NCBI RefSeq assembly: GCF_000626635.1
Contig: NZ_CP007451.1
Coordinates: forward strand, 4,446,501-4,510,500
DNA from: Draconibacterium orientale
GTDB lineage: Bacteria; Bacteroidota; Bacteroidia; Bacteroidales; Prolixibacteraceae
Length of the DNA stretch: 64,000 bases
Direction of reading: 5' to 3'
The notes below the pieces were generated by a model. It did no database searches. It was given only the letters and a program-made list of their open reading frames with translations, and was not told where the DNA came from. Each line of letters starts with the position of its first letter. Position 1 is the first letter of the stretch. This document shows positions 40,893 through 64,000 of this stretch, piece after piece. The position numbers and the translations under genes are program-made.

Positions 40893-41031
40893 ATTTCTCG
40901 CACTATTAAAAACAATGCTTCAAAAAGCACCGTCAGTACTCCATCCGCTGTGGTGGGTAGTAATTCCATTTCTACTCTACTATGTTATCGAAATGTTCAA
41001 GTATTCAATGTTCACACCAATAATATTGTAA
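40879..41031 (+). CDS. 50-aa small membrane protein
   Basis: A short ORF starts 14 bp before the stop of the VirE-N gene and ends 2 bp before the next start. The encoded peptide has a basic N-terminus (MKQNKFLALLKTMLQK) and one membrane segment (residues 24-37, LWWVVIPFLLYYVI). The tight packing supports that it is real. Function unknown; it could be a small toxin, a holin-like peptide or a helper of element maintenance. Confidence 0.5.
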   Translation: MKQNKFLALLKTMLQKAPSVLHPLWWVVIPFLLYYVIEMFKYSMFTPIIL

Positions 41032-41033
41032 CG

Positions 41034-43300: not shown

Positions 43301-43304
43301 ACCT

Positions 43305-45089: not shown

Positions 45090-45374
45090 ATGTTTTTAGG
45101 CAAACGCATTAAAGAACTCCGGGAAGAGAGGCAACTACTTCAACGCCAATTGGCTGCCGATTTGGAGATTGATACTCCTATGTACAGCAAAATTGAACGT
45201 GGCGAAAGGAATGCCAAACGCGAACAAGTTCTAAAATTAGCCAAACTGCTTAATGCCAATAAAGACGAGTTATTGACATTGTGGCTGGCGGGTCAGGTTA
45301 ATAATATTATAAAAGATGAAGATTTAGGCATGAATGCCCTTGAATTTTTAATTCGTTCAAAAACAACAAAATAG
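45090..45374 (+). CDS. XRE-family regulator, controller-protein-like
   Basis: The 94-aa protein has an XRE helix-turn-helix (LGKRIKELREERQLLQRQLAADLEIDTPMYSKIERGERNAKREQVLKLAKLL) and a short C-terminal part. In Bacteroidota such proteins head restriction-modification loci and control their own transcription. It lies 11 bp before the helicase gene and is the first gene of the 18.9 kb run, so it probably regulates the whole operon. Confidence 0.85.
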   Translation: MFLGKRIKELREERQLLQRQLAADLEIDTPMYSKIERGERNAKREQVLKLAKLLNANKDELLTLWLAGQVNNIIKDEDLGMNALEFLIRSKTTK

Positions 45375-45385
45375 TAAGAATACTA

Positions 45386-48221
45386 ATGAATCTCCACTCC
45401 GGTCAGATAATAGAAATGCGCAACCGCCTTTGGCGTGTTGACGAATTTTCAGAAACCGAATTATTCGCAACACCAATCAATGGTGATTATAACGACAAAA
45501 GAGTTTTTCTGCGAGATATTGAGCAGATTAAACCTGCAGAATTGGATAAAATCTCCAAAGATCTAGTTGGCGACTTTCAGGCACAACGTATGTTGCTGCA
45601 TGCCTACCAATTCGATTTAATGCATGGCTCTGCCCCTTTCCTCAGCCTCCAACGTTCAGCTGTAATCCCTTATAACTATCAGTTAGTTCCATTGGTATTG
45701 GCGCTGGAAAAATCCAAAGCCCGTATTTTAATTGCCGATGATGTTGGTTTGGGTAAAACCATTGAAGCGGGCCTTATTATTTCAGAATTAATGCAACGTG
45801 GTAAAGTAAAACGTATTCTTATTTTAACTCCGGCCAACCTGAAAGAACAGTGGCAGGAGGCAATGGAATACTTCTTCCACATTGAATCCAAAATAATTTC
45901 ATCACTTTCCCGAAAAGAATACGAAAAGCAGCTTCCGGCCGGAGCAAACCCCTGGCAATATTTTCAGGTGGTTATAGCATCAATTGATTACGCGAAGGCC
46001 CCGGAAGTAAAACACTTAATACAGGAACAGCAATGGGATTTACTATTGGTTGATGAGGTACACCTTTGTGCCCGGCCGCATGCAACCTTCCGCGCTTCCA
46101 AACAAATGAAACGCTATGAGTTGGTTCGCGATCTTGGAAAACATATTCCCAACGTATTATTTTTAACAGCGACGCCGCACAACGGTTATACCGATTCATT
46201 TGCCAGTATTTTAGAAATCCTGAATGATAAGATTGTAACCACAACTTCAGGAAATACCTTCTTGAATAAGCCTGCAGCCAAGTACAATGTTTGCCAGCGA
46301 AACAGAAAGAAATTGGAGAATTGGTATAAGAAACAAGGCATAGCAAGTCCTTTTCCAAAGAGGAAAGCCGAAGAAGTCTTTGTGGATGTATACGAAAGCA
46401 AAAAACTGGCAAACTGCTTTAACGAAGTGTTGGAATACGGTGATCGGTTATTGGTCAACGCTCAGGGGGCTGGGCGTAAATACAATATTGCTACCTGGGT
46501 AGCCTTCCACTTACAGAAACGTGCCATCAGTTCCCCATACGCTTTGGTGAAATCCATTGAGAACAGATTGGCGACCGTTGAAAACAAGTTAGAGTTTGAA
46601 GAAACGGAAGAAGAAGTACTGAGTGGTTCAGTTCAGGACCTGTTTTTTGAAGACCGCATGACTGACGAAATGGCTTCAAGTAAATTGGACAAAGAACTTT
46701 TAAATGAAGCAGATAAAGAAGAACTTAAAAGTTTGCTACATACGGCAAAAGCGGTTAAGCCAGCGGATGACGTAAAGCTTCAGGAACTGAAGAATAAAAC
46801 GATTCCGGAGCTTCACGCAATCGACAAAAAGATTATTGTATTTACCAAATACAAGGACACGCTCGAATACCTCGAAAGCAACCTTGCCGGAAATGACTAC
46901 GATATTTTCACTATGCATGGTGATTTAAGTTTGACCAAGCGTCAGGAGATTTTCCTTCATTTTGAAAATACAAAAAAAGCAATCTTAATTGCCACCGATG
47001 TAATCTCAGAAGGTCTGAACCTGCAGCGTCTCTCTTCCTGCATCGTTCATTACGAATTACCGTGGAATCCGAACCGGCTGGAACAACGTAACGGTCGTGT
47101 TGACCGTATCGGGCAGTTAAAGGAAAAAGTACATATCAGAACCTTTGTACTGGATAAAACACTCGATAAAGATATTCTCGACTTGTTGATTACAAAAGCG
47201 AACAACATCCGTGAAGACCGGGGCTATAGTGCTGCTTACTTTGGCGACGAAGAATACATCAAAGCAGTACTACAGGAAGCTACCAAACGGAACAGAAAGC
47301 GCCGTAAGAAGAACGTACAGGAAGGACCTACCCTGTTCGATGCCATTGGACAGGACAAGGTAAAAGAAGCCGTCAAAAAAATCTATCTCAAAGGAAGAGG
47401 AAGATCAGCGTTTGCAAAAAATCGACGAGGAAAGTTTTTACGACAGTCTGAACATCGACCTGCCGGAAATCGATAAACGTATCTCCGAAACACAAGCCAT
47501 TGTCGGCTCAAAATCCGATGTGGAACAATTCGTAAAAGCAACCGCAACCTTCTTTAAATCTGTTCTGGTGGATCGCAAAGACGGTTTTCAGGACATAAAA
47601 ATCAATGATCCGCGACTCGAACTTCCACAATACGGTGACAGGCTTTCCAAAATTACTTTCGACCCCGAAATCGGGCTGACACATCCCGATGCAACCGTAT
47701 TGGAAATAGGACATCCTTTTGTTCGTCGTTTAATCGAGATTGTCAAGTCCGAATTTTTCGGCAAAAACGGAGTGTATGGACGAAATGCATGGTACTACTC
47801 CAATGAGGTGAGTTCGGTTTGCTTGTTATACAATGTTTTGGTGAGATATACCGTGGGGTTAACAGAAAAACGGGTTATTGAAGAGATGCTAACCTTTGGC
47901 TTCGATGGTTTTTCACAGAAGGAACTGGATGAAACTTTCATTCGTAAAATCATGCCCGGAAATACAACAGATGAACTAAGTGAAGCCGATTTTAAAGAAT
48001 ACATGGAAGAAGCGATCAGCTTTCCCGACTTCACAAAAATCATGAATAAAAAGATTGAAGATCGTAGACTCAAACTCATCTCCGAGCGACAGGAACTCTA
48101 CAAAAAAATCATCAAGGAAACCGATTCTACCGATGAAGCTTCGTGGATTGATGATGAAATATACATCGATAAAGCCGGTGCCGACCTGCTAACCATCACA
48201 GTTGTTTTACCCTTAAATTAA
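45386..48221 (+). CDS. DrmD-like SNF2-family helicase (one apparent frameshift)
   Basis: Two overlapping frames form one 944-aa protein: the frame breaks at 47393-47394, where GG stands and single G would read LKEEEDQRLQKIDEESF. The helicase core has Walker A ADDVGLGKT (residue 116 on), DEVH at 222, LTATPHNG, and motif VI QRNGRVDRIGQ around 569. A C-terminal helical domain follows. Size and motif order match the DISARM helicase DrmD, and it is followed by a DrmMI-like methylase. The missing DrmA-DrmB-DrmC set is replaced by a different helicase. The frameshift is likely a sequencing error. Confidence 0.85.
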
Positions 48222-48228
48222 TTCAGGC

Positions 48229-51200
48229 ATGGCATTAAGTTTTATCAATACAAGCGGAAACATTATTTCGGAAGACTTTTGCAGCCAGCTGCTAATCGAA
48301 AGCAAAGCCGAATATGTAAAGAGTAAATCGTTTGGCGACGATGTAAAGAAAGTAGATGAAGACATCGCCACCTCTTTTGAGTTATTACGCGAACGTTGGG
48401 AAGAGATCCGCTCAAAGCTACTGGAAGACGAGTTCGACACCACCCAGTTAAGGGACCGATGGATTAAGCAATTCCTGAGCATGCTGGGTTTCGTACCAAT
48501 GTACAATCCGCACAACCTGAAGAACGATGCGGGGCTGGAATATAACATTCCTTACCGGGGCTGGGACGATGACGAAGCTCCCCTCATTCACATGGTTCAC
48601 TCCTCGGCCGATTTCGACTCGCGCGACAAACACAACCGGACGCACGCCAATAAAAGTCCGCACGATATGCTGCAGCAGTTTCTGAATACCTCGCAGCACT
48701 CCTGGGCTATCTTGATCAATGGACGGAAAGTGCGCATTCTGCGCGACTTCTTCCACTCCATAACGAAAGGTTTTATCGAGTTCGACATTGAAGGCATTTT
48801 TGAAACCGCCAACACCGAACAGTTCCGTATTCTTTACAGAATGATGCACAGTAGCCGCTTTGTGGGCCAGTTCGAGAAACATGCCGAAGATGAAGAAAAA
48901 CTAACCTGCTGGCTGGAGAAATTCCATAGCCAGTCGCGCGAAACCGGTGTTAAGGTTGGCGACAACCTCCGCAAACAGGTTCGTTTAGCCATAGAAACAC
49001 TGGGGAATGGTTTTGCAGAAAACCTTAATCCCGACGAGTTCGACGAAGCCAAAGTAAAGAAGTTCTACAGCGAAACCTTAAATATCATTTACCGCCTGCT
49101 CTTCCTGCTCTTTGCCGAGCAAAAAGGTTGGCTCCCGGTAAAAAATGACATTTATGCCCGTACCTATAGCATTAATGCCCTACGCGAAAGAGCTGAAAAG
49201 GCAGACTATTCGCACGATAATAACGAAGATCTTTGGGAAGGATTAAAAGTTACCTTCCGTTTGGTAACCAAAGGCTACACTTTTCCCAACAAGGATAGCA
49301 TCAACGCGTTTGGAGGCCAGCTGTTTTCCGACGAGCGGATTTTCCACATCAAATCGCCGTTAAAAAACAAACATTTGTTAAAGGCGGTTGATGCCCTTTG
49401 TTTCTTTACCGAGAATAAGCTTAAAAACAAAATCAATTACGCCACGCTGGCCATTGATGAATTGGGTTCGGTGTACGAAAGCTTACTCGATTACGAACCT
49501 CGTTTATTACGTGAGAACACCGAAATAAACAGCAGAACCTGCAAACGAGGTGAATTTGTATTGGACGACCGTTCTACCGAACGCAAAACAACCGGTTCGT
49601 ATTACACCGACAGCCGCCTGGTAGCACAGTTAATCGATTCTGCATTAGTACCGGTAATTGAAAATGCACTGAAAGACAAAACCACCGATGACGAAAAACG
49701 CTTAGCCCTACTCGATCTCAAAGTGGCTGATATTGCTTGCGGCTCCGGTGCATTTCTTATTGCAGCCCTCGAAAAATTGGGTGAATACCTTTCGTTAATT
49801 GGCAAAGAAGAAGGTGAAAAACCAACCGAACAGGAACTCCGCCACGCCAAACGCGAGGTGCTCCAGAATTGTATTTACGGGGTAGACTTAAACCCGATGG
49901 CTTTGGAACTCGCGAAATTTTCGCTGTGGATAACAGCTTCTATGCCCAATTTTCCATTAAGTTTCCTCGACCACCGCTTAAAATGCGGAAACTCACTGGT
50001 TGGCGCAACGCCCGAACTCATTGAAAAAGGTATTCCCGTGGAAGCCTTTAATCCGGTAACACTCGATGATAAAAAGGTGTGCACCGAATTAAAAAAGAAG
50101 GTTAGAAAAGAACTCCAGGTTTTTAAAACAAAGGACACATATACAGGAGTACAACAGGGCTTTGAATTTAAGGTAACAGAAATCAGTACCGAATACGAAG
50201 CTGAACAATACCTGCAAATTCTCCATTCGCAGCAGGAAGATGCAGAGGAAGTGGAGAATATGGCGCATGAATACCAGGAGATTTATAAAACCCTGCGCGA
50301 AAATGGCGAATGGAAACTGGCCGATACCTGGACGGCAGCCTTCTTTATTCAGAAAGACGATCTGGATAAATCCTACCCTACTAATACGACCCTGCAGGCC
50401 ATAAAACAGGGCCATGCCATTAACAAAGAACTGGAACTTGAGGTGCTGGACTTAGCTCGAAAATACCGCTTCTTTCACTGGCATTTGGAGTTTCCTGAAG
50501 TATTTGAGAATGGTGGGTTTGATTGTATATTAGGGAATCCTCCTTGGGAAAGAATAAAATTACAAGAAAAAGAATTTTTTAAAGGCAAAGATGATCTTAT
50601 AGCTAAGGCAGCAAAAGCAAAACGAGATAAATTGATAAATGAACTGGAGTCGACTAATCCTAGGCTTTATCAATTATATTCTAATCAAAAGGCTATATCA
50701 GAAAAGTCTACTCTTTTCATCACGGCATCTTGTTGCTATCCCCTTCTTGGAAAGGGTGATATAAACCTTTATAGCATCTTTACGGAAAAAGCCTATAATT
50801 CAATACGTAAGCATGGTCAGTTAGGTATAATAATCCCAACTGACATTGCAACGGGTGATTCAAACAAGAACTTTTTTGCCGAAATTGTTGAAAATCGAAA
50901 ATTGAAATCTTTGTACGATTTTGTAAACAAGAATAAACAGTATTTTAGCAATGTACATGCAAGTGAGAAATTCTGTTTATTAACAATTGTAGGAGATTCA
51001 AATGACAAGGATTTTGATTTCGTTTTCTATATTGAAGAACTAAATGAATTGTTTGATGAAAACAGACATTTTTCACTCAGTTTAGACAATTTTACAGCCA
51101 TCAATCCAAACACAAAAACATGCCCTATTTTCAAAAGTAAATATGATGCAAACATTATCAAAAAAATTCATAAAGCTTGTCCGGTATTAATAAATGAAGA

Positions 51201-52155
51201 TTCAGGAAAAAATCCATTTAAAATCACATTTCTTAAAACTTTAGACGCAGCAAATGCTACAGATGCCAAATTACTGATTGAAGACTCAGCACTTGAGTAT
51301 AGAAAAAGAAAGTATAATGACTTCTATTTTAAACTTGATAATTCAATTTATTACCCAGTATATGAGGGTAAAATGATAGACCACTTTAATCATCGTGCAT
51401 CATCTGTTGAGGTTAATCCGGACAATCCAATTAGAAAAGCGATAAGTGCTCCAAGTTCAATATCACAATTGAAGGATAGTAACTGGTATCCAAATCCACA
51501 ATATTGGATTGACGAAAGCGATTTAGCAAAGAAAATTTATACTGAAGACATACAATGGTCTATAGGTATAAGGAAAAATACTGCTGTTACAAACTCGAGA
51601 ACATTCATTTGTACAATTTTACCAAAAGTAGCAATGCTATACTCATTCAATACTATTTGTTCAAATACTAATAAAAATGGTCTTGTTATACTAAGTTGTA
51701 ATTTAAGCACATTGGCTTTTGATTATATTGTTCGAAATAAGTTAGGAAGTGAGAATATTGCAAAATTTGTAATAAAACAACTACCCGTTATCAGCGAAGA
51801 ACACCTTACCGCTAAAATTTTCGATTTTATCCAATCTAAAGCATTGAGACTTTATTATGTTAGCAATGATTTAAAGCCTGTTGCCAATGACTTAAATTAT
51901 CAAGGAGAACCCTTCACATGGGACGAAGAAGAACGCTTCCAGTTAAAATGTGAATTGGATGCCATTTACGGGCATTTATATGGTTTAACCCGTGAGGAGT
52001 TTGATTACATATTAGAAACCTTCCCTATCGTTAAGCGCAAAGACATCGAAAAATACGGCACTTACCGCACGAAAGACACCATTTTAAAACTTTATGATGA
52101 AATGGATTGGGTAAAGGAGGAAATGGAGAAAACAAAAACTGAAAAACCAAACTAA
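48229..52155 (+). CDS. DrmMI-like N6-adenine DNA methyltransferase
   Basis: The 1308-aa protein is an N6-adenine methyltransferase: SAM-binding DIACGSGAF (residues 501-509) and catalytic NPPWER (around 770). The long N-terminus (1-450) resembles Eco57I- or PglX-type enzymes that read DNA sequence. In DISARM, DrmMI marks host DNA so that the helicases ignore it. The part coding for residues about 765-1185 (50520-51780) is visibly more AT-rich than the rest and probably is a swapped target-recognition region. Confidence 0.85.
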   Translation: MALSFINTSGNIISEDFCSQLLIESKAEYVKSKSFGDDVKKVDEDIATSFELLRERWEEIRSKLLEDEFDTTQLRDRWIKQFLSMLGFVPMYNPHNLKNDAGLEYNIPYRGWDDDEAPLIHMVHSSADFDSRDKHNRTHANKSPHDMLQQFLNTSQHSWAILINGRKVRILRDFFHSITKGFIEFDIEGIFETANTEQFRILYRMMHSSRFVGQFEKHAEDEEKLTCWLEKFHSQSRETGVKVGDNLRKQVRLAIETLGNGFAENLNPDEFDEAKVKKFYSETLNIIYRLLFLLFAEQKGWLPVKNDIYARTYSINALRERAEKADYSHDNNEDLWEGLKVTFRLVTKGYTFPNKDSINAFGGQLFSDERIFHIKSPLKNKHLLKAVDALCFFTENKLKNKINYATLAIDELGSVYESLLDYEPRLLRENTEINSRTCKRGEFVLDDRSTERKTTGSYYTDSRLVAQLIDSALVPVIENALKDKTTDDEKRLALLDLKVADIACGSGAFLIAALEKLGEYLSLIGKEEGEKPTEQELRHAKREVLQNCIYGVDLNPMALELAKFSLWITASMPNFPLSFLDHRLKCGNSLVGATPELIEKGIPVEAFNPVTLDDKKVCTELKKKVRKELQVFKTKDTYTGVQQGFEFKVTEISTEYEAEQYLQILHSQQEDAEEVENMAHEYQEIYKTLRENGEWKLADTWTAAFFIQKDDLDKSYPTNTTLQAIKQGHAINKELELEVLDLARKYRFFHWHLEFPEVFENGGFDCILGNPPWERIKLQEKEFFKGKDDLIAKAAKAKRDKLINELESTNPRLYQLYSNQKAISEKSTLFITASCCYPLLGKGDINLYSIFTEKAYNSIRKHGQLGIIIPTDIATGDSNKNFFAEIVENRKLKSLYDFVNKNKQYFSNVHASEKFCLLTIVGDSNDKDFDFVFYIEELNELFDENRHFSLSLDNFTAINPNTKTCPIFKSKYDANIIKKIHKACPVLINEDSGKNPFKITFLKTLDAANATDAKLLIEDSALEYRKRKYNDFYFKLDNSIYYPVYEGKMIDHFNHRASSVEVNPDNPIRKAISAPSSISQLKDSNWYPNPQYWIDESDLAKKIYTEDIQWSIGIRKNTAVTNSRTFICTILPKVAMLYSFNTICSNTNKNGLVILSCNLSTLAFDYIVRNKLGSENIAKFVIKQLPVISEEHLTAKIFDFIQSKALRLYYVSNDLKPVANDLNYQGEPFTWDEEERFQLKCELDAIYGHLYGLTREEFDYILETFPIVKRKDIEKYGTYRTKDTILKLYDEMDWVKEEMEKTKTEKPN

Positions 52156-52158
52156 GGC

Positions 52159-53166
52159 ATGGACGAGAAACGCAATATCATTATTTACAACACAGCCGAT
52201 GGCAAAGCGAAAGTAGCGCTGTACGCCAAAGACGGAATGGTGTGGATGAACCAAAACCAACTGGCAGAACTTTTTGCCACCTCGAAACAAAACATCAGCC
52301 AACACATCATTAATATACTGAAAGAAGGAGAGTTACAGGAAAATTCAGTTGTAAATAATTACTTGACAACTGCCGAAGATGGCAAAGAATACAACGTAAC
52401 CTTCTACTCGCTCGAAATGATTTTGGCAGTCGGTTTCCGGGTACGCAGCAGGCGTGGCACCCAGTTCCGTATTTGGGCAAATAAAAACCTGAGCGAATAC
52501 ATGGTAAAAGGTTTTGTGATGGACGATGAGCGCCTGAAAAACCCGGATGGTCGTCCTGACTATTTCGATGAATTGTTGGAACGCATACGCGATATTCGCG
52601 CATCCGAAAAACGCTTTTACCAGAAAGTACGCGACCTATTTGCATTGTGTAGCGATTACGACCCGACAGACAAAGCTACCCAAATGTTTTTTGCCGAAAC
52701 CCAGAATAAACTACTTTTTGCCGTATCCGGCAAAACGGCCGCAGAAATTGTAATGAGCCGGGCCGATGCAACAAAGCCCAATATGGCGCTAACATCGTGG
52801 AAAGGAAGCATTGTGCGCAAGGGAGACATCTTTACCGCTAAAAACTACCTCACATCCGACGAAATCGACACCCTGAACCGGTTGGTAGTTATTTTCCTCG
52901 AAACAGCTGAACTACGGGCTAAAAACCGCATCGACATCACCATGGATTTTTGGCGCGACAACGTGGATAAGATTCTCCAACTCAACGACAAATTAGTCCT
53001 GCAAAACAAAGGTTCCATCAGCAACGCCCTAATGGAAAAGCAAGTCCGCGAGATTTATGAGGAGTTTGATACCCGGCGGAAAGCCTATGATGCGCAACAA
53101 GCGGATGAAGAGGAAATAGAGGAATTGAAGAAACTGGAAGAAAATATTAAGAAAACCAAGAAATAA
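52159..53166 (+). CDS. RhuM family protein
   Basis: The 335-aa protein has a RhuM/Bro-N-like N-terminus ([22 protein letters not shown]) and the family hallmarks [16 protein letters not shown] and [11 protein letters not shown]. RhuM proteins occur inside many type I restriction loci with no clear role; DNA binding is likely. It starts 3 bp after the methylase stop codon and 10 bp before the large helicase. It ends in a coiled, acidic-lysine tail. Confidence 0.87.
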
Positions 53167-53176
53167 AACTGATACT

Positions 53177-56100
53177 ATGAACCCGTTTAAAGTATTTCAG
53201 GAGGTAAAGCACCAATATAAAGCATACATTCAAACCTTTCAGGTTTTTAAAAACAAGCAGATTGAAGCCTATGTGCACGACCAGATGGATAATGGCAAAC
53301 TGCTTTGGCAGGAACCGATCATCCAAATTTCAAAACGATTTAAGGCTGGGAAAAGCATTCCCCAATTAATTGACGAAGGAGTGCTGCATCAGGCCACCCG
53401 AGATGTTTTCAACCTCACAAATACACGAACGGGCGAACGGTTTCTGATTCATCCACACCTCCACCAGGAGCAAGCCATTGAAATATGCAGTAGGAAGCAG
53501 GAAAATCTGGTCGTAACCACTGGTACGGGGTCCGGGAAATCGCTCTGTTTCGAGATTCCGATTGTAGACCACTGTTTAAAAGCTAAAGATGAAGGAAAGC
53601 AGGGAATTAAAGCCATCATCATCTACCCGATGAATGCCTTGGCCAACTCACAGTATCAGGAGCTGGCTTCGAAAATGGCAGGCAGTGGTTTATCCATTGG
53701 GCTTTACACCGGTGATACCGACGTTGCCCAGGACAGCGCCATTGAACGATACAAAGAGATATTCGGTGACGATGCTGAACCAAATGACAGCGAAAGAATT
53801 TCCCGAACGGAGATGAAACAAAATCCACCGGATATTTTGCTTACCAACTATGTCCAGTTAGAGTTGCTGCTAACTCGGTTGGAAGACAAACCGCTGTTTA
53901 GAGATGCATTCAAAGAAAACCTTCGTTTTCTGGTTCTCGACGAATTGCACACCTACTCTGGCAAACAAGGTGCCGATGTGGCTTTTCTGGTGCGCCGCTT
54001 AAAACAACGCACCAATACCATCGGTAAATTGATTTGTATCGGAACATCAGCAACCATGGTATCCGATAAGAACGATGAAAATTCATCGCAAGCCATTGCC
54101 GATTTTGCATCAAAAATGTTTGGTGAAGAATTTAAGCCGGAAAATGTGGTGGTTGAAACCGAAGACAAAGCCTTAGAGTTTTCAGGCACCAAAATTTCCG
54201 ATTCGTTCCAATTAGAGGAATCCGACGTTGAAAACCTCGACCACGAAAATCCGTTAACAGCAGCGCCTTTATATAAAGCGCTAATGGGTGAAGATTTCAC
54301 CGGGTCTTCCAACCTCGAACTGGGTGAAGCCCTGAAAGACTCTCTCCTCTTAGGTTTTCTGGAAAAGGAACTGAAAGAAGTGAAAAGCTTTGGAGACCTT
54401 GCAGCAAACTACCAAAATCAAATTCGCAAAGATTTTACACCGGAGCAATGCAAGGCCGAATTAATGGCTGGCCTGCTTTTGGGAATTACAGGAACGTTGC
54501 AAACCGATACAGGTAAAGAAGTTCCGCGCTTTATCCCTAAAATTCATGCTTTCTACAATCAGGGAGGTGAATTACGCGGGTGTCTCGTCCCTGAATGCAA
54601 TTATTTGAGTCATACCGGTGAAACCACTTGCCCTCAATGCGAACAGGAAGGCAGAGGTATTAAAACTTTGTATCCGCTCCATTTCTGCAGGGTATGTGGT
54701 CAGGAATACTATGGCATGATTAAAGATGACAGCAGCGGCCAAACAATGCCCTGGACCTTTATGGACTATGAAACCGAAGGCGACACCGGTTATTACTCAC
54801 CTGCCATAACTTGTAAAGACGACGATCTTCCACAAAACTGGTTCACCCCGAAAAAACATGAACGAGCAAAAAAACATGCACATAAATTTCCAACCAATGG
54901 TGTACTCGATACTGAGAATAACACATTTACAAGATATTATGAAGGCGAAGACCTGAATGGTGTATTCATCCCTTCCCCGCTTCCGATCTGTTTAAATTGC
55001 GGAACCGAACACGGTGGTAACACATCGGAATACGGTAAGATGTTTTTGCTTAACTCAGTTGGTCGGGCAACGGGTACCGATGTAATCACAACAGCGGCCA
55101 TCAATGCTTCACCAATGGACGAGAAGAAGCTGATAGGATTCTCCGATAACCGACAGGACACTGCTTTTCAGGCTGGACACCTGAACCACTGGTATTCGCA
55201 AATTTACTTTAGGCGGATATTAAATAAGGTATTACAGGAAATTGGTTCCGATATTTTTGTGAAAGATTTACCGGCCAAACTCTTCCCGCATTTGGTTGAT
55301 GAGAAGAAATTTGTACCCCGAATGCGCAGATTGGTGAGGCAGAACCTCGAAACCTATTTGGAAACTTATTTATTCGTTGAAATTCGCGGAACAAAGAAAT
55401 TTACCTCGGTAAACCTCGAAGATGTAGGATTACTGTCAGTAGAATATGATTCATTGGACGAATCAATCGAAGAAGGAATTGACGATAAATATCCTGTTTT
55501 AAAAGGTCTAAGTGCTGATTTACAGTACGACTTAATAAAAGGTTTCTTTGAGATATTCCGACGCGAAGTAGCAGTAGCTCATCCCAATCTGATTGAAAAA
55601 GCAAACCTGCGAACCAACCTGAATTTCATCGAAGAACACACTCCGGATCAACGAGTATTCGAGGCCGTAGAAGAAACACAGGTAAGTATCTACACAAATG
55701 GCTCACAAGAACATTTCCGCAAGACTAGCTTTACACATCACGGATTAAACGGTTCTTATACCATAAAAAGCTGGATTCGTAAGTGTGCCCCCTACTTCGA
55801 TGCCGATATGATCAATAGCTGTATCAATGAAATGGTAGCTTTTGGAGTAGAAAACTTCTACATCCAAAAAGAAAAGCTCAACGGGCAAGACTACTTCATG
55901 CTACAGCCGGATGCAATCATGGTGAAACCATTGAAGGATGGCTTCGAACAGGAATGTCCGCAATGCCACAGCCAATATAGTTGGCTTACGGTTAATGCCT
56001 GTTTGAAAAACAGCTGTAAAAACGGCTTGGTAAAAGCAACAATTCACGAAGACTTTTATTACAAACAATATACTTTGGATACGGAAGGCAGCGAGATTAT

Positions 56101-58870
56101 TGTTGCCGACGATCACTCTGCACAGGTACCGGGACAAGAGCGAAAAATCAAGGAGAACAAGTTTAAGAAAACACCTCCCGAAATACAAGTGCTCTTTGCT
56201 ACACCAACTATGGAACTCGGTATTGATATTGGTACGCTTTCATCGGTGTACATGCGCAACATGCCCCCCAACCCAAGTAATTATGCACAGCGCGCCGGTC
56301 GTGCCGGTCGTAGCGGTCAGGGGTCAATTATACAAACATTTTGCGGCTCAGGTCCCGGAAGAGGTGCCCACGATCAGTACTTCTACAACCACCCTACCGA
56401 AATCGTTGCAGGTAAAATTGCAGTTCCCCGCTTCAACCTCGATAATGAATCCTTGTTTCTAAGTCATATTAACGCATTGATTCTACAAACCATTGATATT
56501 AAGTTTCCACACGCAGCAAAGGATTTAATTGACTTTGCTGATTTAAACCTCGACATGTTCACGTCAAGGGTAGATGAATTTACCAATGCAGTATCAAAAA
56601 ACCACACTTCCATTCTGGCAAATATTGAAAATGCCTTTAAAGAAGAAATGGAGGAAGCTACCACAATTGAACGACAAGCGATCCAAAAACAAGTTGACAA
56701 TTTCACCTTCAACCTGAATGAAGCACTGGAACTGCTTCGGGAAGACTACAAGGAATCAAAATCAGAGATCAATTACCTGACAAAAAGAATACAGGAAGAA
56801 GGCCAGGCACATAACTTCTATCTGACAAGTCGCCGGGAAGCCCTGGAAAAAAGGAATGAAGATTTGCGCGAAGGAAATGGTGTTTTTTACATGTATCGTT
56901 ACCTGAGCCAGGTGGGCTTTTTACCCAATTATGCTTTCCCTACAAAAATCAAATCGGTTAAGTTCCAATACAAGAAAGAAGAAAAAGAATTGGTACGCGA
57001 TCAGGTAATTGCCTTACGCGAATTTAGCCCCTACAATACGCTCTATTATAGTGGTCAGAAATTTGTTGTTGAGCGTGTAAGCAAAGAATCAGATATTAAT
57101 ACACGCTATAGCCTGATTATTTGCGACCACTGCGAGCATATTGAAGAAATAATCGATGGCAAGCAGCGTCCTACAAATTGTAAATCCTGTGGTAACGTGT
57201 ATTCTCATCCAAACTATGTCCAGGCAATTCAGTTTCCACGTATGCATGCTCAACGCCGGATGCGTATCACCGCTGAAGAGGAAGAAAGAGCAAAAGGCGG
57301 GTATAAAACAATTAGCAGCTACAACAAAAGTAAGAATGCAATCAGTAAAAAGCTGACCGCACAAAACCAAACCTTAGCCAAACTAACTTTTGAGCGAACC
57401 GCTAAATTCCGGCACATAAACCTGGGTGCTCAACGCGATTATAAAGAGGGTAACATTGGTTTTAATCTCGATGTAATTAACCGCGAGTGGGTAAGTAAAA
57501 ACCAGGGCAAACTTGAGCGACACATTGAAGATCGTAAAATCGATGCAGGAGAAGTGGCACGCGGTTTATCGTTGATTACAGACTCGATGAATGATGTAAT
57601 TACCCTGGAAACAGCAAAGGCAATCAGAGATGATGCAGAAGCCTTTGGTGTGACTTTATTGAACGTACTACTTCAATCCATTTGCAACGTCCTAAACCTC
57701 GATGAATCAGAAATAAGAGGTTTTTATCAACCCATACGCAATCAAAATGGTCGCCTCGTTATTTTTGAAACTTCTGAAGGAGGAACAGGCACACTCTCTT
57801 CCATCGTAAAAAGTGAAAGTTTAATTCGTAAAGTAGCACTTAAAGCGCTCGATATTCTTCACTTTAATGCAGATGGCACTGACAAACCGGATGCTTGTGC
57901 GCATGCTTGCTACAATTGTATATGTAACTTCTATAATCAGCGATACCATCAGGATTTCGACCGTAATTTAGTAAAGGATTTCCTGCTCGACCTTTCAAAG
58001 TTCCAGGCTTTTGAAAACGATCAGGACGATGCTATCCTGTATGAAGAATACCTCGGCAGCGATAAAACAACCTCTCTGGAAGAAGAAGTGTTGACACGTC
58101 TTTATAACAGAGGTTTTCCAATGCCAAACGAGCTGCACAAAATAATTAGCTACGACAAAGAACCAATTGCCGAAGCCGATTTGTTCTACGAGCCACGTCT
58201 GTGTGTTTTTATTGATGGCCCTGATCACGATAAAGAGCACGTAAAACGAAACGACGAGGTCAAGAGAAGAAAGCTGAAAATGCTGAATTTTAAATACGTG
58301 GTAATCCATCATTCAAAAATCAACGAAGGCATCAGTAGCCTGATTTCGGAATTAGGCATCAGCGTTGAAGAATTGAATAAGAAAGAGTATTCCGGCCACA
58401 TTTATCTCGATACAAATAACAAAGAGATTGCTGAGCAGGTTTACGCTTCCTATAAACGATTAATCGAATCCTTCGGTTTTGAATTTACAAATGATGGAGA
58501 AATAATAAACGGCTCGTGGATCCAACAAAAAATTAGCTACGCTTTTAGCTGGTTAGGAAATTTCATTTCACCTGATGAAGTTGCACGGAAAACGAAGTAT
58601 GCAATCGAGCTCGCAAAAATTCAAAAAGTTCAATCCGAAGTAAATCGTAACAACTTTGAGGGTGCGGCAGCATTCATAACATCAATTCAACATCTTGACA
58701 ATGCAATGACACTTATGGGGTCGTTAGCTATTGTAAAGTTACATGGAACTGAACTTCAAATCTTTGAGTTAACTACTGAACAAATGATATTTCTGGAAAA
58801 TAATCCTCAGTTGCGAAATAATCCAGTCCTTTTTATGGAGGAATACAATAGAATGAATAAACTCAATTAG
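53177..58870 (+). CDS. giant DEAD-family helicase with DUF1998/MZB and C-terminal nuclease
   Basis: The 1897-aa protein has Walker A TGTGSGKS (around 119), Walker B DELH (around 255) and SAT (about 291), zinc ribbons near 470-515 and 927-950 ([12 protein letters not shown]), motif [15 protein letters not shown] (1008-1019) and [12 protein letters not shown] (1038-1049). An MZB/DUF1998 region follows with GGTG (around 1535) and [14 protein letters not shown] (1573-1586). Residues 1640-1730 look like a PD-(D/E)XK nuclease: [20 protein letters not shown] with the later [15 protein letters not shown]. DrmA and DrmB of DISARM are separate proteins, so this one may replace both; DruE of Druantia is also similar in layout. 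Confidence 0.85.
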
Positions 58871-58878
58871 TTTAAAAT

Positions 58879-59727
58879 ATGAAAAAAGACACTTCCGTAA
58901 AGCGCTGGCTTAAAAACAATTACTTTATTATCCTTGGCGTTATAGGCACAATTTATTTCATTGTCGTTACTTTTCTATTCATCCAAGCTTATTATGATAG
59001 CTTAAATTTATCATCGCTTATTGACACAAAAGCGTTTGCCGAATATGGTTCTCATTTAGCGGGTATAGGAGCAATTTTAGCTTTCTTTTTTGCTTTTGCC
59101 ACTTTCCTAAAAGTTGAATCTGCCAACAGAAAGAAGGATTTTGAAACCACCTTTTTTAACATGCTTACCCACTTTGATAGCATTATTGCCCAGATTAAAG
59201 TCACCAAGGAAAATAGGATTGAACATCTAAATCCTAAAAATAATTTTGAAAAGGAATATGCTGGTCGGTCTGCTTTAAATGTGCTTTTAGCAGACTATCT
59301 CGCATTTGCAAGAGAATTAATAAACATAGATGAACTCGGCGATGATGATTTAGAAACAGAAGAATTACGAATTCCTTATCGATGGAGACAGGTGTATAAT
59401 CACAACCTGGAGTCTTTACCTCATTATTTCCGCTATTATTACACATTGGTCAAATTCATAATGACGTCAGATAAAAGAATTGACAGGAGCTTGTATGCCA
59501 ATCTTTTACAGGCTAAAATGTCGAGCAGTGAAATGGGCCTTATATTTTATAATACATTTTACAATAGCAAAATTAGTCAACAAAGAGGTGCTAAGGAATT
59601 TCAGACATGGCTAAATGACCCGGATATAAATCTGTTTGAAAATATCGATGCAAAAAGTGTATTATCCACGGCCGATTTAAAAGCTAAATGCCCAAAAATT
59701 AAATTCAAGTTTGAACAAAACAAATAA
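58879..59727 (+). CDS. putAbiC-like membrane protein, candidate effector
   Basis: The 282-aa protein has two N-terminal membrane helices (residues 14-38 and 58-80) and a cytoplasmic domain like putAbiC, with FETTFFNMLTHFDSII and a later YYYTLVKFIMTS and LLQAKMSSSEMGLIFYNTFYN. Abortive-infection proteins of this class are thought to disturb the membrane. It lies two genes before an inactive Argonaute; long-B Argonautes often have a nearby membrane effector, so this may be one. It is more AT-rich than the neighbouring helicase. Confidence 0.75.
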   Translation: MKKDTSVKRWLKNNYFIILGVIGTIYFIVVTFLFIQAYYDSLNLSSLIDTKAFAEYGSHLAGIGAILAFFFAFATFLKVESANRKKDFETTFFNMLTHFDSIIAQIKVTKENRIEHLNPKNNFEKEYAGRSALNVLLADYLAFARELINIDELGDDDLETEELRIPYRWRQVYNHNLESLPHYFRYYYTLVKFIMTSDKRIDRSLYANLLQAKMSSSEMGLIFYNTFYNSKISQQRGAKEFQTWLNDPDINLFENIDAKSVLSTADLKAKCPKIKFKFEQNK

Positions 59728-59737
59728 AACAAAATCA

Positions 59738-60019
59738 ATGAACACTAAAATTACAATGGGAAACGACGAGTATATTCTTTACATCAGAAAAACCACGTCA
59801 ACCTGCAGTATTACGAATGACGACCTGGGCAAATACATCTGGATTTGGCTACGCGACAGAGGGGCCGATAAGATAAAAGAAGATGTTCCATGCCTTTGGG
59901 GCAAGACTGCCCAAAAACTCGATGCTTTAAAACTGCCCAAAACAGCCGCTCAATTTGAATTTAACCGCAATTTATTGCCTGAATTATATGACTACTTAGA
60001 TGTATTAGCCGCAAAATAA
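59738..60019 (+). CDS. small unknown protein before Argonaute
   Basis: I do not recognise this 93-aa protein. It starts at ATG 59738 (a TTG at 59711 would overlap the previous gene) and ends 12 bp before the Argonaute gene. It is mixed in charge and has two clear tryptophans in GKYIWIWLRDRGADK, which suggests a compact DNA- or protein-binding fold. It may be a helper of the effector or of the Argonaute. Confidence 0.65.
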   Translation: MNTKITMGNDEYILYIRKTTSTCSITNDDLGKYIWIWLRDRGADKIKEDVPCLWGKTAQKLDALKLPKTAAQFEFNRNLLPELYDYLDVLAAK

Positions 60020-60031
60020 AACCAGACTACT

Positions 60032-62146
60032 ATGTCAAACCCAAAACTTACATTCAACCTTTTAACGTTCACGCATCCGCAAAAAAGTTTAACCTTTTGG
60101 TTTACCAACCAGGAACAAGACGGTCTTTGCCGTATTTTTCATACATTGGTTCCCGATGAGGTCAGGAATAAATTTGGGGAACAGGACCATTTTTACACAT
60201 CTTTCGAGGAAGAACATGAAGGATTTTTTGCCGTTACAAAAAATACCACTCCTGATTTTGAATATTCCACCGACGAAGACGGTGAAGAATACCGAAAAAT
60301 GGTTAAAAATTCAGCCTATACCCGATCCGTTCTACGTAGGTATTATAACCAGCAAATCTATCAGTATTTTAAAGGATTAGGCTATCTGGTTAAACCGAAT
60401 TTCATAGATGATATTGAAGTCTGGTTCCCCAAAAAGAAAGATGACATTCATTACAACTATGTTGAGAAATTTACCCTGAAAGTACAATTAGCAAGAATAA
60501 CCGATAAGCCGGAATTGGTAATTACTTCGGCTGGAATTTCAAGAATTTTCAAGAATAGCGTACTCGACTTGCTGGATATGGTCGCTCCCGACTGCTTTAA
60601 TTGGGTAATTTACGAACAGCAACTATATCGCTATGATGAACTTCCAGATAAACCAAAGATGGAGCTTGATAAAGTCTTCCCGGTGTGGAACTTCGATATT
60701 CGCGATGCGCTTCAATTACCTACTGAAGCCCCCGACCGATCAAATAAATACCTCAGATTCAAGTCAAATATTGATACTTTTTATAAGCACTTCATTAGTA
60801 AAAATGGTTTCACCGAAATTATACCAGTAGACTCAAAGTCTTTTGTTCCGGTTAAGGAAGTCAAAATCAATTCAGTAAAAGAAAAAAGTAATGAGTTACT
60901 CTTTTTCGATGATACCCCCGACATCGTGCCTTTTAACGGAATGAAAAAAGGCCCTTACAAAGGAAGTGACTACGGCAACATACAGTTCTTTTATATATTC
61001 CATGAGGAACATCGAGAGATTGCAGACAACCTGCACAATTACTTTACAAATGGGCTTTATTCATTCAAAGGATTATATCGGTTTGCAAAGGTCCCCTATC
61101 ACACGCAGCGAAATTTTAGTATTGTTTTTTCAAACAAAGACAATCCGCTGGAAGAGATCGAAAGAGAATTAATCAAACGCGATTTCAAGCCCGAAACACA
61201 TTATTTTGCGATATACCTGAGTCCACATAGCAAGCACCATCCAAGCAAGGAAATAAAATCTGTTTATTACCGTGTTAAAGAGCTTTTATTAAAACGGGAT
61301 ATAACCTCACAGGCAATAGATGCCGAAAAAGTAAGAACTACTTTAGCCGATGAAGGATCTCGATATGATTACAGCCTGAATAATATTGCGATCGCAATTT
61401 TAGCTAAACTCGACGGTATTCCCTGGCAATTAAACGCTAAGCTTAAAAACGAATTAATTGTTGGTGTCGGAGCCTTCCGGCATGTGGATACCGATGTGCA
61501 ATATCTGGGAAGTGCTTTTAGCTTTTCTAACAACGGAAAATTTAAACGCTTTGAGTGCTTCCAAAAAGACCAGACCGACGAATTAGCGGGATCGATTCTC
61601 GACCAGATAAAAGAATATGTGTCAGTAAACAGCAACATTAACCGGCTGATAATCCACTTCTACAAAAACATGAGTAGGAAGGAACTGGAGCCAATTGAAA
61701 AAGGCCTACATAATCTCGATTTGGATATTCCTGTCTTCATTGTTTCAATAAATAAAACTGAATCACACGATATTGTTGCTTTCGACAACAACTCCAAAGA
61801 ATTGATGCCACTTAGCGGCACCTACATAAATGTTGGCTTCAACCAATACCTGTTATTCAATAATGTCAGGTACAATACTGACAGCAGAATAGGTGCAATC
61901 GACGGCTACCCCTTCCCCATCAAACTTTCAGTTCGTTGTACGCACGAGGAAGAAGCCAAAGACCAAAAAGTAGTAAGAGAATTAATAAACCAGGTATATC
62001 AGTTTAGCCGGATGTATTGGAAATCTGTACGTCAGCAAAACTTACCGGTAACAATCAAATACCCGGAAATGGTGGCTGAAATATTCCCCCATTTCTCCGG
62101 CAATGAAATCCCCGAGTTCGGAAAAGATAATTTGTGGTTTTTATAA
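60032..62146 (+). CDS. catalytically inactive Argonaute (long pAgo)
   Basis: The 704-aa protein is a prokaryotic Argonaute. The MID domain keeps the 5'-phosphate pocket with Tyr412, Lys416, Gln427 and Lys459 (YYRVKELLLKRDITSQAID, then LAKLDGIPW), so guide binding is likely. In the PIWI domain the first catalytic Asp is Gly480 (IVGVGAFR), and the HRDG-type motif is replaced by HFYKNMS (about 542-548), so slicing is unlikely. The N-terminal 390 residues hold the N, L1 and a short PAZ-like part. These features fit the long-B class, which acts by turning on an associated effector. The nearest candidate is the putAbiC protein. Confidence 0.85.
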   Translation: MSNPKLTFNLLTFTHPQKSLTFWFTNQEQDGLCRIFHTLVPDEVRNKFGEQDHFYTSFEEEHEGFFAVTKNTTPDFEYSTDEDGEEYRKMVKNSAYTRSVLRRYYNQQIYQYFKGLGYLVKPNFIDDIEVWFPKKKDDIHYNYVEKFTLKVQLARITDKPELVITSAGISRIFKNSVLDLLDMVAPDCFNWVIYEQQLYRYDELPDKPKMELDKVFPVWNFDIRDALQLPTEAPDRSNKYLRFKSNIDTFYKHFISKNGFTEIIPVDSKSFVPVKEVKINSVKEKSNELLFFDDTPDIVPFNGMKKGPYKGSDYGNIQFFYIFHEEHREIADNLHNYFTNGLYSFKGLYRFAKVPYHTQRNFSIVFSNKDNPLEEIERELIKRDFKPETHYFAIYLSPHSKHHPSKEIKSVYYRVKELLLKRDITSQAIDAEKVRTTLADEGSRYDYSLNNIAIAILAKLDGIPWQLNAKLKNELIVGVGAFRHVDTDVQYLGSAFSFSNNGKFKRFECFQKDQTDELAGSILDQIKEYVSVNSNINRLIIHFYKNMSRKELEPIEKGLHNLDLDIPVFIVSINKTESHDIVAFDNNSKELMPLSGTYINVGFNQYLLFNNVRYNTDSRIGAIDGYPFPIKLSVRCTHEEEAKDQKVVRELINQVYQFSRMYWKSVRQQNLPVTIKYPEMVAEIFPHFSGNEIPEFGKDNLWFL

Positions 62147-62189
62147 AAAAAGAAACAGCAAAAATACACAACTATTAAAACGTAATTAA

Positions 62190-63686
62190 ATGGAACAAGT
62201 TAAGACTTCGCAGTTTGAACAAATTTGTAAGAATATAGATGTATGGTCACAGTGGAGAGATCAATACAAGATCTATGTTCCTCTGTTCATTGAAGAAGCT
62301 AAGCAAAACAAACACTGGTCGCTTTGGGAGAAAGATTTGTTTTTTGAATTTTTTGAAAAATCAAACGATCAATGTGTTTCCTCTCTTCGTCAAGGATACT
62401 TTACGAACAAAGAGAAACAAGATATTAAAGATCATTGGGATGAGTTGTCTCCTCTGTTTGCACAAATAGCAGAAAACCAAGATATACCTCAATGGGAAGC
62501 TTATGATGCATTGAAAAAGACAATCCGAAAATATACAAAGGTTGACAGACGTGCCGCTACTAATAGACTGGTAGCCTCTTTGCAACCTCGATTGCTTTCT
62601 ACTATCGTCAATGAGGATAACCTTTCCGAGCTTTATTGGTTTCTCCAACATAAAACAGACGAGCAAATTCCTCCATATGTTGGCGGTAATTGGTTTCAAA
62701 ACAGTTATAACATTCTGCAATTCTTTAAACAGAAACTTACCGATCTGGATTACTACGATATAATAACATACCCATGGCAGGTCAGGGATTCATTTTTACA
62801 TGCAAAAAGTAAGAACGAACAAGTAACAAAAAAGCAAAATATGGAAATCGATTTCTTGAAAAAAGTAAAAAACGTGATATATACCGGTGCGCCAGGCACA
62901 GGAAAAACTTACAAAGCAAAACAGTTAGCGAAAACTATAACCAATTATAACGAGGATCAGGATGACGGTCGTATAGCTTTTGTTCAGTTTCACCCATCTT
63001 ATGATTATACTGATTTTGTGGAAGGTCTGAGACCAGTAAAGTCTGCCGAACAAAAAGAAGTTTCGTTTGAATTGCGAGATGGAATATTCAGAAGTTTCTG
63101 CGAACGAGCTAAAAATGACGAGGAAAACGATTATGTATTAGTAATTGATGAAATAAATCGTGGTGAGATTTCCAAGATATTTGGAGAGCTATTTTTCTCA
63201 ATTGACCCAGGTTACAGAGGCCGTAAAGGAAGTGTATTAACACAATATGCTAATCTTAGGAAGAAGGAAGACCAATACTTCTACGTGCCGGATAACGTCT
63301 ATATCATTGGCACAATGAATGATATCGACAGAAGTGTTGAAAGTTTTGATTTTGCAATGCGTCGTCGTTTCGCTTGGCGCGAAATTAAAGCCAGCGAACA
63401 AACAGATATGTGGCTTGGAAAAATTGATGCCTGGATAGACGAAGCACAAGATAGAATGGAAAGGCTCAACAAAGCCATCGAGAAAACTGAGGGACTAAGT
63501 TCTGCTTATCACATTGGGCCAGCTTACTTTTTAGTTCTAAAAGACCATGATGGAGATTTTAGTAAACTGTGGAACTACCACATTGAACCACTATTGACTG
63601 AATACTTGCGTGGTTTCCCAAACCCGTCAGAAACACTTAAAAAACTTCAATGGAGATACGATGGCTCAGATATCCAGAACAACTGA
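62190..63686 (+). CDS. mcrB: McrB-like AAA+ GTPase
   Basis: The 498-aa protein has an N-terminal DNA-reading part (1-220, with WDAYDALKKT-like helices) and a McrB-type AAA+ domain: Walker A GAPGTGKT (about 233-240), IDEINRGEISKIFGELF (about 318-334) and GTMNDIDRSVESFDFAMRRRF (about 374-394). McrB uses GTP to translocate on DNA, and with McrC cuts DNA carrying modified cytosine. No methyl-cytosine-binding family can be named for the N-terminal part. It overlaps the next gene by 26 bp. Confidence 0.88.
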   Translation: MEQVKTSQFEQICKNIDVWSQWRDQYKIYVPLFIEEAKQNKHWSLWEKDLFFEFFEKSNDQCVSSLRQGYFTNKEKQDIKDHWDELSPLFAQIAENQDIPQWEAYDALKKTIRKYTKVDRRAATNRLVASLQPRLLSTIVNEDNLSELYWFLQHKTDEQIPPYVGGNWFQNSYNILQFFKQKLTDLDYYDIITYPWQVRDSFLHAKSKNEQVTKKQNMEIDFLKKVKNVIYTGAPGTGKTYKAKQLAKTITNYNEDQDDGRIAFVQFHPSYDYTDFVEGLRPVKSAEQKEVSFELRDGIFRSFCERAKNDEENDYVLVIDEINRGEISKIFGELFFSIDPGYRGRKGSVLTQYANLRKKEDQYFYVPDNVYIIGTMNDIDRSVESFDFAMRRRFAWREIKASEQTDMWLGKIDAWIDEAQDRMERLNKAIEKTEGLSSAYHIGPAYFLVLKDHDGDFSKLWNYHIEPLLTEYLRGFPNPSETLKKLQWRYDGSDIQNN

Positions 63687-64000
63687 TAACAATCAGGGAA
63701 AAAAGATAACCGACATTTTTAAAGGATCAGATCACACGAAATGTGCATCTGATCTGGCTCTAATTGCCGGAATTCCGGTCTCAACTTTGGTTGAAAAGAA
63801 TGACAGTTTACTTGTGTTTCCGGCTGTTGTTAATGAGTATGGTGATGATATAGGAAACTCCTCTGTTTTTTCTTTGTCAGCAGACAAACTCACCACTTAC
63901 AATTTAATGGGATTTATCGGATGTAATCAAACAGAGTTGACGATCGCTTCCCGATTTTACTCGAAAGGGAATGATTACTTTTTGCACTATATGCTGCAAA
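63661..64000 (+). CDS. mcrC: McrC/LlaJI-type restriction subunit, 3' end missing
   Basis: The gene starts at ATG 63661 inside the mcrB end and runs past the right edge; 113 residues are seen. The pattern VVNEYGDD and ELTIASRFYSKGNDYFLHYMLQ is typical of McrC/LlaJI-type proteins, which supply the nuclease of the McrBC complex. The catalytic part lies beyond the window. The overlap with mcrB suggests translational coupling. Confidence 0.8.
   Translation, partial: MAQISRTTDNNQGKKITDIFKGSDHTKCASDLALIAGIPVSTLVEKNDSLLVFPAVVNEYGDDIGNSSVFSLSADKLTTYNLMGFIGCNQTELTIASRFYSKGNDYFLHYMLQ

Follow-up and report, generated by a model that had tools for sequence, protein, structure and literature searches.

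Why ten genes with such different associations to bacterial defence should stand closely packed on one strand is the question raised by a 64,000-nt stretch of the Draconibacterium orientale genome (contig NZ_CP007451.1, positions 4,446,501 to 4,510,500), referred to here as the window. The genes run from an XRE-type regulator at position 45090 through a DISARM-related core and a long, inactive-looking Argonaute to McrBC, and an earlier note on this DNA took them for one undescribed system with three immune layers. The ten genes are real, all lie on the + strand with gaps of 3-43 bp or overlaps, and their arrangement, headed by the XRE gene, is operon-like. Rather than forming one fixed machine, they seem to fill a slot whose content is exchangeable. 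We consider it probable that the locus represents one filling of a restriction slot in an integrative element of Bacteroidota that inserts at mnmE, a judgement that includes a functional proposal; taken alone, the element with its exchangeable slot is very probable from the sequence comparisons presented below, and the functional part (co-expression, sensor Argonaute, DUF6617 partner) is tentative.

The integrative element and its slot before the Argonaute gene

The element measures 37.3 kb, lies at the 3' end of mnmE and is bounded by exact 19-bp repeats. It begins upstream of the ten genes (36429) and ends beyond the window (73795). This element and the exchange of its slot content ahead of the Argonaute gene are what is new, and both lay outside the view of the earlier note. 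Coordinates are those of the window, and those termed extended continue past its end, with a parallel numbering in record L003. The backbone consists, in this order, of a small HTH protein, a tyrosine integrase, a DUF6617 protein, one or two proteins of ~98 aa, a primase and a helicase, after which come the XRE gene, the slot and the Argonaute gene. Besides integrase and direct repeats, an empty site characterizes this as an integrative element at mnmE. In G344, a genome of the same genus, the sequence from ~85 bp past the mnmE stop matches extended positions 78886-80297 at 88%, and G344 therefore lacks the insert. The ~5 kb between the right repeat and this match (L003:12296-17386; extended 73796-78886) represent a further insertion with an IS1595-type transposase. 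The gene to the right of the element was rejected as an empty-site test; it is not conserved in kin, and therefore the mnmE flanks were used.

Among 18 other mnmE loci of the genus (one without downstream sequence), an integrase of at least 67% identity lies directly behind mnmE in three, and six more carry integrases of 35-46%. Two of the three loci with the closer integrase (G342 and G341) hold elements of ~30.5 and 26.4 kb that are flanked on either side by the same repeat and include the Argonaute together with an XRE gene and type I restriction; in the last of the three (G350), integrase, primase, helicase and a single-ORF ArmA are followed by the contig end. The last 15 bp of a locus's own mnmE are copied behind the Argonaute with 0-1 mismatch in 10 of 49 mnmE loci, which was reached in 0 of 20 shuffles each. 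No match to the window Argonaute was obtained on phages; on plasmids 12 records match, none of them covering 80%, with less than 28% identity among the 10 listed.

SGI1-type islands integrate at trmE/mnmE and thus share with the present element the target gene, besides a site-specific integrase and direct repeats. Integrase, direct repeats and defence cargo are also common to satellite-like elements that carry defence islands and sit at tRNA genes, as presented in passages of PMC12458937. In contrast to both, the element studied here has another backbone, with DUF6617, a BT4734 primase, a DUF3987 helicase and the Argonaute, and the start of a gene forms the right edge of its slot.

The surroundings of the Argonaute are nearly constant. 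In a class sample, 16 of 295 genomes have an Argonaute match (the own genome included), and 11 of the 15 others, with near full-length matches, were read; a contig scan gave 266 Argonaute relatives, from which the 80 best were taken, less 4 records duplicating class genomes. With these 11 class genomes, two elements of the same genus and the window itself added, the analysis comprised 90 loci, 34 of which were set aside, whereas 56 had at least 12 kb upstream or a recognizable mnmE and were considered testable. Of these testable loci 56 have the helicase, 53 the integrase, 53 DUF6617, 49 mnmE and 44 the XRE gene, and the order mnmE-integrase-DUF6617-helicase-XRE-Argonaute shows 0 departures. 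In L072, the Argonaute match falls in two separate pieces, and the Argonaute is probably interrupted in that record. A second sampling used the integrase as query in 295 genomes of the class (identity of at least 59%; 10 genomes with the own), 295 of the order (E<=1e-120; 8 with the own) and the genus (3). It provided 20 different elements, with the Argonaute present in 11 (the own, G004, G267, G158, G200, G060, G194, G388, G365, G342, and G341), and missing in two (G075 and G563). The element of G138 is split between two contigs, one running from the integrase to HsdM and the other from a restriction-like gene to the Argonaute, and six elements lie on truncated contigs (G038, G452, G424, G465, G425, and G350). 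G388 is apparently the contig of L067, with the same length and the same genes. G075 (L183, L185) has the same backbone; no DUF6617, XRE or Argonaute was detected there, and two proteins of ~1125 aa are found instead.

Between the end of the XRE gene and the start of the Argonaute gene, the slot ranges from a 4-bp overlap up to 14657 bp (51 loci with XRE), that of the window being the largest. Eight slots are empty (L046, L048, L049, L063, L078, L083, L100, and L120). In the named related loci, some of which are near-duplicates, the slot ORFs with 100 aa or more all lie on the + strand (187 of 187), as do 188 of 189 when the limit is lowered to 60 aa, a co-direction that exceeds chance. By Pfam, the cargo comprises type I, type III and MmeI-like restriction, D12 methylases, GmrSD, Schlafen AlbA_2, RhuM, and Abi_2 (tally of 83 out of 166 listed slot proteins; the families named are among the 25 listed out of 98); an AlwI-type enzyme occupies the slot of L059 and a BsuBI/PstI-type enzyme that of L047.

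That the filling is exchanged is most evident in close pairs. The empty L083 and G200, with 6.4 kb in its slot, have Argonautes of 97%, integrases of 98% and MnmE proteins of 54% identity; the corresponding values are 98, 99, and 63% for the empty L049 and L066 (9.1 kb), and 97, 99, and 54% for the empty L078 and L077 (RhuM). Six loci (L056, L059, L060, L061, L062, and G060) with Argonautes 96-99% identical have six different sets of genes in their six slots; their integrases are 98-99% identical, except for 86-87% in four pairs with L056, and their MnmE proteins share 53-59% in seven pairs and 88% in three. Conversely, a type III enzyme 90-91% identical precedes Argonautes that are 40% identical (L074/L075 versus G278), and an HsdR 85% identical likewise precedes Argonautes 40% identical (L082 versus G004). 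When DNA was aligned in 16 pairs, homology resumed at most 3 bp from the Argonaute start in seven (L049/L066, L061/G060, L061/L062, L061/L060, L061/L056, L061/L059, and L048/L047) and inside the Argonaute gene in two (L078/L077 at +6/+3, L083/G200 at +39/+9). These comparisons show a near-constant context in which the filling is exchanged, with a right junction that, on sequence grounds, is placed at or near the Argonaute start codon in most close pairs with different fillings.

Several observations weigh against this reading. The remaining pairs behave differently, as homology begins 18-26 bp before the Argonaute in two (L055/L057 and L044/L050) and reaches shared cargo in five (L104/G194, G158/G267, L075/L076, L043/L045, and L061/L065). 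The left edge is ragged, lying inside the XRE gene or up to ~0.4 kb before it, and most of the XRE gene aligns at ~80% in L083/G200, L104/G194, and L044/L050. The count of 56 out of 56 is biased, since the loci were picked by similarity to the window Argonaute (best 80 of 266), and the integrase sample has just 13 informative elements. By tblastn the XRE gene was not found in 12 of the 56 loci, L106 among them. A clear right repeat is present in just the 10 of 49 loci mentioned (13 with two mismatches allowed), many of the downstream flanks searched ending at 10 kb, and G131, G133, G099, L071, and L100 use another integrase, with no mnmE within the flank examined. Integrase identity correlates with that of host MnmE (0.402), and therefore transfer between distant hosts is not the sole history of the element. 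In the part of PMC2743648 concerned, no significant link of Argonautes with mobile genes was found (p 0.63).

Table 1. Features of the mnmE element of D. orientale and its target gene, in window or extended coordinates.
Feature	Position	Strand	Matches and remarks
mnmE, tRNA-modification GTPase, chromosomal integration target	35050..36447	+	MnmE_helical 3e-53, TrmE_N 3e-42 (Pfam)
Left direct repeat (attL core), 19 bp, last 19 bp of mnmE	36429..36447	+	
HTH_17 protein, 122 aa, element backbone	36661..37029	+	
Tyrosine integrase	37026..38114	+	Arm-DNA-bind_5, Phage_int_SAM_5, Phage_integrase
DUF6617-like protein, element backbone	38119..39129	+	
BT4734-like primase, element backbone	39834..40892	+	
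PriCT_2-DUF3987 putative replicative helicase, element backbone	40950..42866	+	
DRT2-type reverse transcriptase, additional cargo in the interval from helicase to XRE	43250..44851	+	PADLOC Drt2 3e-139
XRE-type regulator, left edge of slot	45090..45374	+	
ArmA/DrmD-like (RapA) helicase, first part	45386..47476	+	DrmD model positions 3-679
ArmA/DrmD-like helicase, second part, other frame	47412..48221	+	DrmD model positions 763-899
ArmB/DrmMI/PglX-like N6-adenine methylase	48229..52155	+	Eco57I, DrmMI matches; NPPW at residue 770
RhuM-family protein, accessory cargo	52159..53166	+	PADLOC candidate PDC-S05
ArmC, YprA/DruE-like helicase, 1897 aa	53177..58870	+	DEAD, Helicase_C, MZB; possible Vsr-like nuclease stretch
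putAbiC/AbiP-like protein, accessory cargo	58879..59727	+	
Small protein, 102 aa from TTG (93 aa from ATG)	59711..60019	+	No family match
Long inactive-type prokaryotic Argonaute, right edge of slot	60032..62146	+	
McrB-like AAA+ protein, cargo downstream of Argonaute	62190..63686	+	
McrC	from ~63661, past window end (64000) to extended 65031 (L003:3531)	+	PD...DAK nuclease motif
Right direct repeat, 19 bp, identical to left	extended 73777-73795 (L003:12277-12295)		

The Argonaute family and its candidate partner

The Argonaute of the window matches its PADLOC model over nearly the whole length (4e-278). Its nearest solved relatives are AF1318 and EcAgo, and the chains that come after these two we take to be RsAgo. 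At the positions which we presume to be those of the catalytic aspartates, the alignment containing no active Argonaute, G[VI]GAF and IHFYK are found in 12 of 12 aligned members; at these presumed sites the Piwi domain thus lacks catalytic residues, as in inactive long-B Argonautes. Upstream lies a VirE-N/BT4734-like gene, the primase, and a primase or primase-helicase occurs in the relatives too; PF08800 was, we assume, formerly named VirE N-terminal domain. Passages of PMC10620215 describe a long-B subclade (og_54) of inactive Argonautes that are preceded, at a distance of two to eight genes, by a gene with a VirE-N domain; their function is left open there. Judged by this description of the gene context, which agrees with the inactive long Argonaute and the BT4734-like primase upstream of it in the window, the og_54 or VirE-N clade is probably the family studied here; the VirE-N gene would then be the primase of the element and the intervening genes its exchangeable slot. 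The BPAN, BPAS, and BPAM systems, in the same passages of that paper, also have an inactive long Argonaute in an operon, but they carry an effector gene directly downstream of it, whereas here McrB, which is not one of their effectors, follows after 43 bp. The Argonaute-operon genes reported in PMC6299218 include HsdS, type III restriction, AlbA_2, and lambda-repressor-like families, which recur here; in contrast to the present locus, there is no integrase in its main text and no mobile element or exchangeable slot in the passages concerned.

Pairwise identities of the Argonaute correlate with those of DUF6617 (0.775, n=60), helicase (0.604, n=68) and integrase (0.448, n=58), and hardly with those of host MnmE (0.145, p 0.075, n=49). 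With helicase and integrase held constant, the partial correlation with DUF6617 is 0.604 (n=54); it is 0.489 (n=31, p 0.002) with one member per 85% Argonaute cluster and 0.641 (n=26, p 0.002) among elements with the mnmE-type integrase. DUF6617 is not in step with its direct neighbour, the integrase (-0.014 and -0.151). By tblastn DUF6617 was found in 10 of the 11 Argonaute-bearing elements of the integrase sample, the eleventh (G194) having an unmatched 331-aa gene at this place, and no DUF6617 match was obtained in the two elements without Argonaute (G075 and G563). L096 and L111 have a DUF6617-like gene immediately ahead of the Argonaute gene. These comparisons make the DUF6617 gene beside the integrase the best candidate for a partner of the Argonaute. 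Speaking against it, a weaker partial correlation persists between helicase and Argonaute (0.273 and 0.346), L063 and L048 have DUF6617 proteins that are 97% identical with Argonautes of 69%, and identities near 20% are noisy. Matches to the DUF6617 Pfam family were obtained for 14 of 15 aligned DUF6617-like proteins and AlpA/HTH_17 matches for two of the 15; a DUF6617 model (mean pLDDT 80.5) has no PDB match at E<=0.001. Two other candidates were rejected: the XRE protein as an inherited partner, the divergence of which is not in step with that of the Argonaute (0.098, p 0.125), and a slot gene as partner by general rule, since eight slots are empty and the cargo varies.

The same data bear on the possibility that the Argonaute is ordinary cargo which by chance stands last in a defence island and has no tie to the element. 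The two Argonaute-less elements among the 13 informative ones would agree with this, as would the report in PMC2743648, as far as its relevant part goes, that Argonautes are statistically associated with restriction and abortive-infection genes rather than with mobile genes. Yet the Argonaute is kept in the eight loci with empty slots and occupies the same place and strand in all 56 testable loci, and its divergence follows helicase (0.60) and DUF6617 (0.78), not host MnmE, so that we regard this explanation as unlikely.

The ARMADA-like filling and McrBC

The filling of the window consists of an ARMADA cassette resembling type I, together with RhuM, an AbiC-like protein, and a small protein, and McrBC follows behind the Argonaute. 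In the sections concerned, PMC12458937 defines ARMADA by three proteins: a BrxHII/RapA-like helicase (ArmA), a methylase resembling PglX (ArmB), and a YprA helicase related to that of Druantia (ArmC). Many archaea and cyanobacteria have type I with its genes ordered A-B-C, further features of this type being a BrxA-like insertion after RecA1 and a C-terminal Vsr-type nuclease; in type II a fourth gene is almost always present. The words Argonaute, pAgo, and RhuM are absent from its main text. The DISARM-like core with its giant helicase matches this description. ArmA has DrmD and BrxHI/II matches and 44% identity to the ArmA of Natrinema over 652 residues, although its frame is broken in the assembly; ArmB has the Eco57I and DrmMI matches with the NPPW motif and 37% identity to its Natrinema counterpart; and ArmC is a single YprA-like helicase with MZB, for which the DruE models are best (PADLOC DruE1 1e-111, DruE3 4e-109) and DrmA models weak (3e-15 at best). 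The large protein with MZB, reported before as a giant helicase, is therefore present with its identity amended to DruE/YprA-like. Further identities to the Natrinema proteins are 26% for the second part of ArmA and 36% for ArmC. On the plasmid of this haloarchaeon, the genes for helicase, methylase, and DEAD/DEAH helicase are directly adjacent in the order A-B-C, and a plasmid of the cyanobacterium Dolichospermum has the same order with small genes in between. No UvrD/GajB match, as for the GajB/RelE-type ArmD of type II, is listed for the genes from XRE to McrC. DISARM was rejected as a name for the core because separate DrmA, DrmB, and DrmC genes, required for class 1, are missing, their absence having been recognized in the earlier note, and Druantia because no other Dru gene appears among the 25 best PADLOC matches of each neighbouring protein. 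Components and order are those of ARMADA type I; unlike there, RhuM stands between ArmB and ArmC, ArmC has an extra C-terminal domain, ArmA is broken, and the cassette sits in the slot of an Argonaute element.

Elsewhere ARMADA is found whole in the slot of one other element, L106, where the two parts of ArmA are matched at 74 and 62%, ArmB at 59%, and ArmC at 65%, a 211-aa gene takes the place of RhuM, and six other genes precede the Argonaute; G350 shows ArmA only before its contig ends. No XRE gene was detected in L106 by tblastn. One slot protein of L106 (L106:8164-9663) has a cytidine-deaminase domain and a domain like the RecG C terminus. Other listed matches to ArmC are 27-44% identical (295 class genomes at E<=1e-40, 295 order genomes at E<=1e-60), and those above 35% are N-terminal segments of ~330 residues or less.

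The extra domain of ArmC covers about residues 1740-1897 (window ~58394-58867); in the window and in L106, ~160 residues follow residue 1710, where the alignment with the Natrinema ArmC stops. Similar sequence ends the HsdR of G060 and L053, which belong to type I systems that occupy slots of this kind. The domain as a slot-specific adaptor was rejected, since it occurs in 4 of 295 class genomes, including G145 and G101, both without Argonaute match. In a model of the C terminus (mean pLDDT 63.1), residues 31-130 contain an EAD...DGPDHD pattern that we take to be Vsr-like (block pLDDT 71-84), and no PDB match was obtained at E<=0.001, TnsA being best at 0.15.

The DrmD-like helicase is present, but not as the one intact gene supposed before, since two ORFs in different frames meet at ~47.37 kb. 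Against single-ORF homologues (G350, 943 aa, 85% identity; L106, 946 aa, 74%), the frame changes at ~47364-47380, by either a mutation or an assembly error. Could the island be decaying, with ARMADA dead and little of it functional? The break in ArmA, which both relatives have as one ORF, would suit this view. Considering that ArmB, ArmC, RhuM, Argonaute, McrB, and McrC are all open, that the two 19-bp repeats are identical, and that the break might be an assembly error in an A-rich stretch, decay seems improbable.

McrBC has the features of the type IV enzyme, McrB matching AAA_5 (3e-14) and McrC PF10117 (4e-53) with the PD...DAK motif, and was thus named correctly from the start; with NF008457, McrB scores 4e-46, under the cut-off of that model. 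McrBC is associated with DISARM-like systems according to passages of PMC11090510; as there, it lies near an ARMADA-like cassette, and unlike there, an Argonaute stands between them. Neither the core nor its link with McrBC is therefore new, the former having been named in PMC12458937 and the latter association having been reported in PMC11090510, as the relevant parts of both papers indicate. The earlier note had held that a match to an already named array would remove the novelty of the set, and for the core ARMADA is such a match. Among the loci read, the full set of ten genes did not recur, and the two elements of the same genus that were read completely (G342 and G341) showed no McrBC match. 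A dedicated three-layer machine of ARMADA, Argonaute, and McrBC under a single XRE controller, for which co-directional and tightly packed genes, the recurrence of ARMADA before a related Argonaute in L106 and of ArmA in the same backbone in G350, and the published association (PMC11090510, in part) might be adduced, is very unlikely, given that other elements hold other restriction systems or nothing between XRE and Argonaute, that the XRE gene was not found in L106 or G350, that in L106, G342, and G341 the ORFs which follow the Argonaute appear, by start sequence, unlike McrBC, and that ArmA is frame-broken here.

Farther to the right inside the element, McrC is followed by genes for a WYL protein, an NOV_C protein, and a DUF6266 protein, the last one (L003:9935-10585) near the right repeat; ORFs that, by eye, start similarly to it are situated behind the Argonaute in G342, G341, and G388. 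The place of the DRT2-type reverse transcriptase (43250-44851) represents a second cargo position of the element.

A proposal for the role of the slot and its meaning

For the exchangeable slot of the mnmE element, we tentatively propose that an XRE-controlled promoter drives transcription of the slot through to the Argonaute gene, and that the resident restriction system would therefore be co-expressed with the Argonaute. The restriction system of the slot would attack incoming DNA, and the Argonaute, without cleavage residues of its own, might act as a guide-loaded sensor and be retained when the restriction arm is swapped. Its likeliest direct partner would be the co-evolving DUF6617 protein and not any single slot gene. 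Carried further, and now with considerable doubt, this would amount to a split two-component immunity, in which DUF6617 and the inactive Argonaute, ~21 kb apart in the window, would form the sensor and the restriction arm, exchanged as a cassette at the Argonaute start codon, an interchangeable nuclease.

A literature search of open-licence papers (listed titles and abstract starts) found no prior description of a family of elements in which an inactive Argonaute delimits a restriction slot. If the og_54 clade is this family, as its gene context leads us to infer, inactive long Argonautes to which no role has been assigned would belong to one family of integrative elements and would adjoin a slot in which type I, II, and III, ARMADA, and other systems are swapped. 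Their role could then be tested by comparing elements with empty and with filled slots whose Argonautes are 96-99% identical. The element family would also offer a concrete route by which whole restriction systems may move between distant Bacteroidota.

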